Origin: Candidatus Gastranaerophilales bacterium
GTDB lineage: Bacteria; Cyanobacteriota; Vampirovibrionia; Gastranaerophilales; Gastranaerophilaceae
DNA length: 64,000 bases
Direction of reading: 5' to 3'
Assembly: GCA_944323335.1 (NCBI GenBank)
Contig: CALUSB010000004.1
Span: forward strand, 1 to 64,000
How positions within the stretch are numbered: position 1 is the first letter of the stretch; every line of letters starts with the position of its first letter. The notes below the pieces were generated by a model that was given only the letters and a program-made list of their open reading frames with translations, searched no databases and was not told where the DNA came from. The position numbers were made by a program, and so were the translations under genes. Below, one piece after another: positions 12,287 to 52,070 of the stretch.

Positions 12287-12509
12287 AGCGTGAGCCGGAG
12301 TGAGCCTAAGGGCTTGCGAGGAGCAAGACCGCAGGCGCAACTGTCGATAGGCGACGTAGGATAATCGAGCGCAACGGCGCGAGATACCCACAGGAGCAAA
12401 GAGTACGGCAAACGATGAGTTTGGCGGGCATATGCAAACCGTTCCTGACCGCCGTTGCGAATGAAACGAAGTGCAATGAGCGAAGCAATCTTTGATTGCA
12501 CAGGCGGAA
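12287..12509. repeat. GC-rich dispersed repeat element, copy 1
   Basis: This block directly after the prepilin stop is much richer in GC than its surroundings. Its last 61 bases (12449-12509) match 51882-51941 except for one indel and one substitution, and the similarity continues weakly upstream. The shared core is bounded by CCGCC and GGCGG and contains the hairpin GCAATC-TTT-GATTGC. GGATGCAA occurs on both sides (12263 and 12531), a possible short target duplication. Frames on the minus strand here are chance. Confidence 0.75.
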
Positions 12510-12554
12510 TTGAACATTGAAAACATAATAGGATGCAAAACTAAGTCCAGTTAC

Positions 12555-12650
12555 GGGCTGTCAAAAAGGCTCCTCGCCTTTTTGCACGCCCTCACATCCT
12601 AAGGCTCGTTTGAAAATTTTAACGGGGCACAAGCCCCGTAGAAAATTTTC
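12555..12650. repeat. Two strong hairpins downstream of the repeat element
   Basis: Hairpin one (12555-12591) has stem CAAAAAGGC/GCCTTTTTG with an outer GGGC/GCCC. Hairpin two (12612-12650) has CGGGGC/GCCCCG inside GAAAATTTT/AAAATTTTC. No gene is seen in 12510-12677. Confidence 0.7.
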
Positions 12651-50890: not shown

Positions 50891-51706
50891 ATGGGTATTA
50901 TGGATGGCAAAAAGGGTATTATCTTCGGTGTTTCAAACAAACACGGGATTGCAAATGCCATAGCTGAACAAATCTACGCGGCAGGCGGAGAAATTGCTTT
51001 TACATATGCTAATGAAGCAATGGAAAAACGCGTAAAACCGATAGCTGAAGAAATGAATGCTAAAATGTGCATAGAATGCGACGTTACAAAAGAAGAAGAC
51101 GTTGAAAAAGTTTTTAAAGAATATGAAAAAATCTATGACAGACTTGACTTTGTCATCCACGCAGTTGCTTTTGCAAACAGAGAAGACCTTTTGGGCGATT
51201 TTTATACAACAAGCAGAGAAGGTTGGGATTTAGCAATGCATGTAAGCGCTTATTCTCTTTTAACTCTTACAAAGTATGCTAAACCTCAAATGGAAAAAAC
51301 AGGCGGCGGCTCAATTTTGGCCCTTACATATTTAGGTTCAACACACGCCGTTGCAAATTACAATATTATGGGTGTGGCAAAAGCTGCGCTTGAATCTTCA
51401 ATGAGATTCATCGCTGCAGATTTGGGCAAATTTAACATTCGCTGCAACTGCTTATCCGCAGGCCCTGTTAAAACACTTGCAGCAAAAGGTATCGGCGGAT
51501 TTGACAAAATGCTTAAATTCAACGCTCTTAAAGCTCCGCTTAATCGCACACCGTCTTTAGAGGACGTTGGTAAAGCAGGTTTATACTTGGCTTCTGACTT
51601 ATCTTCAGGCGTAACCGGACAAGTTCAATTTGTTGACTGCGGCGCATCAAGCGTATTTGCATCAATCGACGAAATGGAATGCGTAAGTCAAGCAAGCTTA
51701 GCGTAA
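50891..51706 (+). CDS. fabI: Enoyl-ACP reductase (NADH), FabI type
   Basis: 271 residues from ATG 50891, which follows AAGGAG; the frame to TTG 50864 is an extension. GIIFGVSNKHGIANAIA is the NADH loop of FabI and YNIMGVAKAALESSMRFIA the Tyr-Lys catalytic pair. It does the last step of each fatty-acid elongation round. The C-terminus (VDCGASSVFASIDEMECVSQ) departs from the usual VDGGY ending, and its last nine codons are part of a 37-bp direct repeat. Confidence 0.93.
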   Translation: MGIMDGKKGIIFGVSNKHGIANAIAEQIYAAGGEIAFTYANEAMEKRVKPIAEEMNAKMCIECDVTKEEDVEKVFKEYEKIYDRLDFVIHAVAFANREDLLGDFYTTSREGWDLAMHVSAYSLLTLTKYAKPQMEKTGGGSILALTYLGSTHAVANYNIMGVAKAALESSMRFIAADLGKFNIRCNCLSAGPVKTLAAKGIGGFDKMLKFNALKAPLNRTPSLEDVGKAGLYLASDLSSGVTGQVQFVDCGASSVFASIDEMECVSQASLA

Positions 51707-51978
51707 GCTTAGCAAGCGAAGACGAGCGCTTGGGTGTGCGAAGCCCGAACGGGAAGGCGAAGAGCCTTGCCGACAGGGCGTAGCCGTACCAAATGCGTGA
51801 GCCGAAGCGAAGCGTAGAGGTGTGCGAAGTGCGATAGCGGCAAGCGGGGAGCTTGGCGCTAAGCACGTAGTCCGTTCCAAGCCGCCGTTGCGAATGAAAC
51901 GAAGTGAATGAGCGGAGCAATCTTTGATTGCACAGGCGGAAAATGCGTAAGTCAAGCAAGCTTAGCGTAAGCTTAGCA
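51678..51978. repeat. 227-bp GC-rich repeat element (copy 2) between 37-bp direct repeats
   Basis: The 37-bp sequence at 51678-51714, spanning the last codons and stop of fabI, is repeated exactly at 51942-51978. Between them lie 227 bp richer in GC. The final 60 bases (51882-51941) match the element at 12449-12509. This looks like an insertion with target duplication, or a recombination product. No transposase is encoded; minus-strand frames here are chance. Confidence 0.85.
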
Positions 51979-51999
51979 TAAATTAAATATTCAAATACT

Positions 52000-52033
52000 A
52001 AAATATCGCCAAGGATTTCCAAGGCGATATTTT
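52000..52033 (+). terminator. Terminator of fabI
   Basis: AAAATATCGCC and GGCGATATTTT form an 11-bp stem beyond the repeat element. It was probably next to the fabI stop before the element entered. Confidence 0.75.
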
Positions 52034-52070
52034 AGAACAATAGTGAGAAGAACAAATAAGGGGGTAGTTT

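Follow-up and report, generated by a model that had tools for sequence, protein, structure and literature searches.

Several kinds of short repeats come close to the sequences described here. Small dispersed repeats of cyanobacteria contain hairpins with compensatory changes and show nesting, and the GC clusters of yeast mitochondrial DNA are GC-rich hairpin inserts in an AT-rich genome. Rickettsia palindromic elements (RPEs) measure ~150 bp and lie in frame in protein genes (PMC10969869). REPINs are dispersed hairpins with compensatory changes (PMC3116915). We compared these systems with a GC-rich insert at the 3' end of fabI in a Gastranaerophilales metagenome-assembled genome (G000; Candidatus Galligastranaerophilus-like, 1.67 Mb in 49 contigs), one member of whose genus bears the name Candidatus Galligastranaerophilus intestinavium. 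The window analysed is a whole stretch of 64,000 nucleotides of this genome. We found that the fabI insert belongs to a new family of folded, dispersed non-coding repeats in Gastranaerophilaceae, set apart from RPEs and from the STRR of cyanobacteria by comparison with their descriptions.

Like the STRR and small dispersed repeats of cyanobacteria, a sister lineage, the full unit of the family (U) is small and gene-free, and in congeners of G000 family modules are likewise located inside the RNase P RNA gene. However, U is a 130–150 bp unit with a long hairpin and a three-way junction, and the likeness is drawn from description. RPEs share with U a length of ~150 bp and in-frame insertion into open reading frames (rmlD and leuS in our case), but U has a multi-domain fold, forms tandem arrays, lies mostly behind stop codons and occurs in a different phylum; this comparison, too, is by description. 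The REPIN/RAYT system also combines dispersed hairpins with compensatory changes, whereas U resides in a genome without a Y1 transposase and has no inverted pair of REP sequences; a REPIN/RAYT assignment was rejected after the Y1 search found none in G000. MITEs are non-autonomous, gene-free and ~150 bp long, as U is, but U has neither terminal inverted repeats nor a constant target duplication (absent in most copies, 10 to ~60 bp otherwise). In contrast to group II introns and IStrons, U contains no Rfam-recognised intron core, and G000 encodes no reverse transcriptase. With the yeast GC clusters U shares the character of a GC-rich hairpin insert, by description, while being longer and multi-domain. 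Hammerhead-like and attC-like resemblances, judged by eye, were dropped for want of support. Overall, the family is related in behaviour to RPEs, REPINs and the cyanobacterial STRR, with no descent implied. It offers a gene-free repeat whose two-domain fold is kept by compensatory change, whose stems are swapped in fixed frames, and which is tolerated in RNase P RNA and in essential enzymes: a rare natural experiment on the spread and persistence of short structured repeats without an obvious transposase.

Layout of the fabI insert and a second locus

The direct repeat that flanks the insert is exact over 37 bp, with 264 bp from start to start and 227 bp between the copies (Table 1). Both this repeat and the placement of the last fabI codons and stop within its first copy had been recognised correctly in the original prediction. 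GC content of the insert is ~60%, versus roughly 38% in the surroundings. No terminal inverted repeats of at least 12 nt were found at the insert, the sole inverted pair of that length being located downstream of it. Based on the best match of the hairpin model R2 (see below), the order of the insert is read as an H1 unit, a full H1-E unit and the repeated module end; that is, the insert is a two-unit array. The earlier view of the 37-mer as a plain target sequence has to be corrected, since at other loci its TAAGCTTAGCA end opens a repeat module.

Table 1. Positions of the features within the 64,000-nt window
Feature	Position	Strand	Remarks
fabI, enoyl-ACP reductase, 271 aa	50891..51706	+	last codons and stop inside the first 37-mer
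Left copy of the 37-bp direct repeat	51678..51714	+	fabI tail and 5' part of module B
H1-type hairpin unit without E	51733..51790	+	GGTGTG...CCGTACC; R2 match 51738-51784
Full unit U	51795..51941	+	GCGTGAGCC start; H1 hairpin 51819-51878; three-way junction E 51880-51941
Module E, three-way junction	51880..51941	+	P1 CCGCC/GGCGG, variable P2, P3 GCAATC/GATTGC
Right copy of the 37-bp direct repeat	51942..51978	+	joined to the host 3' flank
Terminator-like hairpin behind the insert	51998..52035	.	loop reverse-complemented relative to G003 and G009
Second family locus	12288..12515	+	H1-type hairpin 12295-12350, module D, E 12447-12509
Module F	12544..12599	-	stem framed by GGATGTGAG and ACTGGACT; G003 has the same frame and a wholly different stem (L002, L097)

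Parts of the 301-bp fabI stretch were matched at nine places in the G000 genome. The 60-base core predicted to recur at a distant site does so: the last 60 bp of the insert return at 12447-12509, and identity to the insert is 93% over the 71 bp of 12439-12509. As for the suspicion that this core might lie inside a longer conserved RNA or gene, a longer folded and conserved unit does contain it, although what is conserved is a dispersed repeat that corresponds to no gene or known RNA. The GC-rich repeat sequences are mosaics of short hairpin modules, and whole stems are swapped within fixed frames, for example within the frame of module F between G000 and G003. At the terminator-like hairpin behind the insert, the loop AAGGATTTCCAAGG reads as the exact reverse complement of its counterpart in G003 and G009 (L033, L034), as expected for template switching in a palindrome.

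Fold and distribution of the family

The full unit of ~130–150 bp is composed of a small GNRA-type start hairpin, the long hairpin H1 and, directly after it, the three-way junction E, a module of 64 nt. H1 has a basal helix, a symmetric internal loop and a GNRA or GNNGA tip, with compensatory changes at 10 of its 14 consensus pairs. Within the genus, 12 copies of E show compensatory changes at 7 of 19 pairs. Across many genera, an alignment of 61 distinct copies has 98.1% of its 1133 cells paired, with 156 both-side changes versus 39.8 in shuffles. This alignment was fitted to the model and therefore leans towards structure, but pairing in slid controls is below 40%. Moreover, the R2 model, built from H1 copies of other genera only, found its top match in the 64-kb window within the fabI insert (E-value 3.5e-5). 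The fold of H1-E is kept while the letters of its sequence change. In some genera the P3 loop of E bears an extra nested hairpin (L206, L207, L208, L190 of G039; L188, L201).

Of 117 near relatives, 32 contain E. In a phylum-wide sample of 386 genomes it occurs in 84, of which all but one belong to a single family; the exception is from another family of the same order. The E model had no match outside Gastranaerophilales among these 386 genomes. Searches of Rfam at gathering and relaxed thresholds returned chance matches only, besides RNase P. The exact core is absent from the viral contigs searched, and no similar DNA was found in the plasmids or phages searched. No name for the family was found in literature searches on repeats and RNA motifs in Gastranaerophilales, supplementary tables of RNA-motif surveys aside. 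Copies dispersed within one genome are on average only 0.66–0.96 identical, so recent long-range movement was not caught, while tandem copies at one locus hardly differ. Since many contigs of these bins break off inside modules (L093-L095, L102, L147, L153, L154), copy numbers are underestimates; in turn, the module repeats account for many contig breaks in Gastranaerophilales bins.

Polymorphism and proposed gain and loss at the fabI site

We compared the 3' ends of fabI across all 15 genomes of the genus. G003, the nearest relative of G000 (fabI DNA 97.8% identical), has a single copy of the 37-mer (35/37) and no insert, followed by the same downstream DNA, and joining the two flanks of G000 reproduces this arrangement. 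An empty site of this kind had been proposed as the proof of insertion, and the empty sites do support it. In G009 the site is empty as well, and the 11-bp TAAGCTTAGCA-like part is missing too; there is no insert at fabI in G004, G006 and G008. Other GC-rich module arrays, with the same start point behind GAAATGGAA, are found in G001, G002, G005, G007, G010, G011, G012, G013 and G014. The arrangement of G000 is thus not common to all relatives, the site being empty or differently filled among congeners. Together, the empty sites of G003 and G009 and the different arrays of nine congeners indicate that the fabI site is polymorphic and a hotspot. A second repeat type, arrays of CCCTGAAACAAGTTCAGGGTGACGG palindromes, adjoins the GC-rich modules in G005 and G014 (L037, L040, L101, L105).

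The fabI tree groups G000 with G003 (98/93), and these are joined by G009 and then by G001, with the states filled, empty, empty and filled, respectively. This pattern means either one gain and two losses or more than one gain. Since the inserts of G001 and G000 share 97% identity over 239 bp, the empty state of G003 and G009 may be due to loss and not to absence before insertion; the extra 11 bp of G003 look like the footprint of such a loss. More generally, close relatives differ in whether a given site holds a copy, and units form head-to-tail stacks.

Of 111 E copies, 34 are directly followed by a repeat of the unit's own 5' end, over 10 to ~60 bp; in a mismatched-pair control, counted without a position limit, 9 of 333 reach the same score. 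The 37-bp repeat conforms to this pattern. Because the flanking repeats vary in length, and because they begin at the unit's own 5' end, the suggestion that the 37 bp represent a target-site duplication is not supported. Rather, the 37-bp repeat is probably a shared module end that takes part in repeat-mediated gain and loss. The reading we favour, with a probability of about 0.6, is a non-autonomous repeat array whose units are gained and lost via shared module ends, and both guesses of the original prediction, a novel non-autonomous element and a recombination relic, hold in part. We infer that arrays grow and shrink through these ends as follows. A new unit would enter an occupied or look-alike site via short homology to its own 5' end, by template switching or ectopic recombination, so that a direct repeat of this 5' end would flank it on either side; recombination between the two repeat copies could then remove units again. 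The compact fold would make the insert tolerable in RNA and may also protect the upstream mRNA. About two thirds of E copies have no clear flanking repeat, so homology-seeded insertion cannot account for all of them.

Landing sites and alternative readings

Where the gene on the 5' side of a unit lies within 150 bp, the unit has the same orientation as that gene in 35 cases and the opposite one in 8. The start of the unit is often within a few bases of the stop codon, for example behind rplC and rplB (gene names read from protein ends), and the same intergenic sites behind these two genes are occupied in several genera or genomes. At the rplC-rplD gap in the genus of G304, 9 out of 30 loci carry the strict motif and one more has it with a single-base difference, the remainder being empty or otherwise filled. 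Units also occur within protein genes. In rmlD, a gene whose identity was confirmed and where 15 congeners of G304 have a plain ISLADKPEL, G431 carries one in-frame unit of 45 codons and G304 two in tandem (L234, L261, L262). In leuS, an in-frame unit is located near the anticodon-binding domain in G175, with matching sequence at the same site of G304 (L233, L244).

The RNase P RNA gene is a further landing site. Modules fill the tip of P12 in several congeners, the remaining RNA aligning end to end, and large P12 module arrays are found in at least two genera (L142-L151, L174), while the rnpB gene of G000 is free of inserts. In cyanobacteria P12 is dispensable (PMC2858038), and the occurrence of STRR in the cyanobacterial RNase P RNA gene is cited there from Vioque 1997. 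The parallel between the family and the cyanobacterial rnpB repeats may be of ancient date or the product of convergence, and this can now be tested.

Could an enzyme acting in trans explain these observations? A site-specific recombinase or transposase might insert U at targets similar to its own 5' end, in the manner of attachment sites, and each insertion would rebuild the target and give rise to tandem arrays. The right-hand host copies at fabI and rmlD do resemble the unit start, and heterogeneous arrays do grow at one point. However, a repeat length of 10 to ~60 bp argues against such an enzyme, as does the lack of a Y1 transposase in G000 and 13 of 14 congeners; no recombinase was found tied to the unit in a search that covered Y1 transposases, and we consider this route unlikely. 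Strong covariation of E, the sense bias and the recurrent sites behind rplC and rplB are what one could expect of a cis-acting regulatory RNA under selection in ribosomal protein operons, its spread being secondary. Yet the patchy occupancy of the rplC-rplD gap within one genus, the in-frame units of rmlD and leuS, the modules in RNase P RNA and the varying numbers at fabI make such a role quite improbable.

RNA could also be the vehicle of spread. Insertion by reverse transcription, of either a retroposon or a group II intron relative without an ORF, would fit the RNA-like GNRA loops and covarying stems as well as the sense bias and the position behind stop codons, but there is no match to an intron or anything else in Rfam, and flanking repeats are unexpected for an intron. 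This route is further weakened by the lack of a reverse transcriptase in G000; none was found in G001, G003, G007, G008 and G012 either, 9 of the 15 congeners having one, and we regard it as very unlikely. Another idea is that U is a self-contained mobile structured RNA that spreads as a transcript: it would insert into RNAs, directly after stop codons and at the tips of helices, and then be copied into DNA again. We hold this to be quite improbable; if true, it would make U a gene-free retroelement of a kind not described before. Finally, several copies are located at contig ends, as an artefact of assembling metagenome bins might be, but the fabI and rmlD inserts are internal to long contigs, connect with the host flanks one would expect and are found again in independent bins, which leaves an artefact scarcely credible.

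In G023 (L188, L198, L199) and G083 (L201, L202), E copies also lie shortly before prepilin-like genes (...AFTMAEILLSLTIIGVVAAITLP) or within their leader part. A run of ~12 G adjoins the unit in L188 and L202 and is possibly a phase-variation tract.
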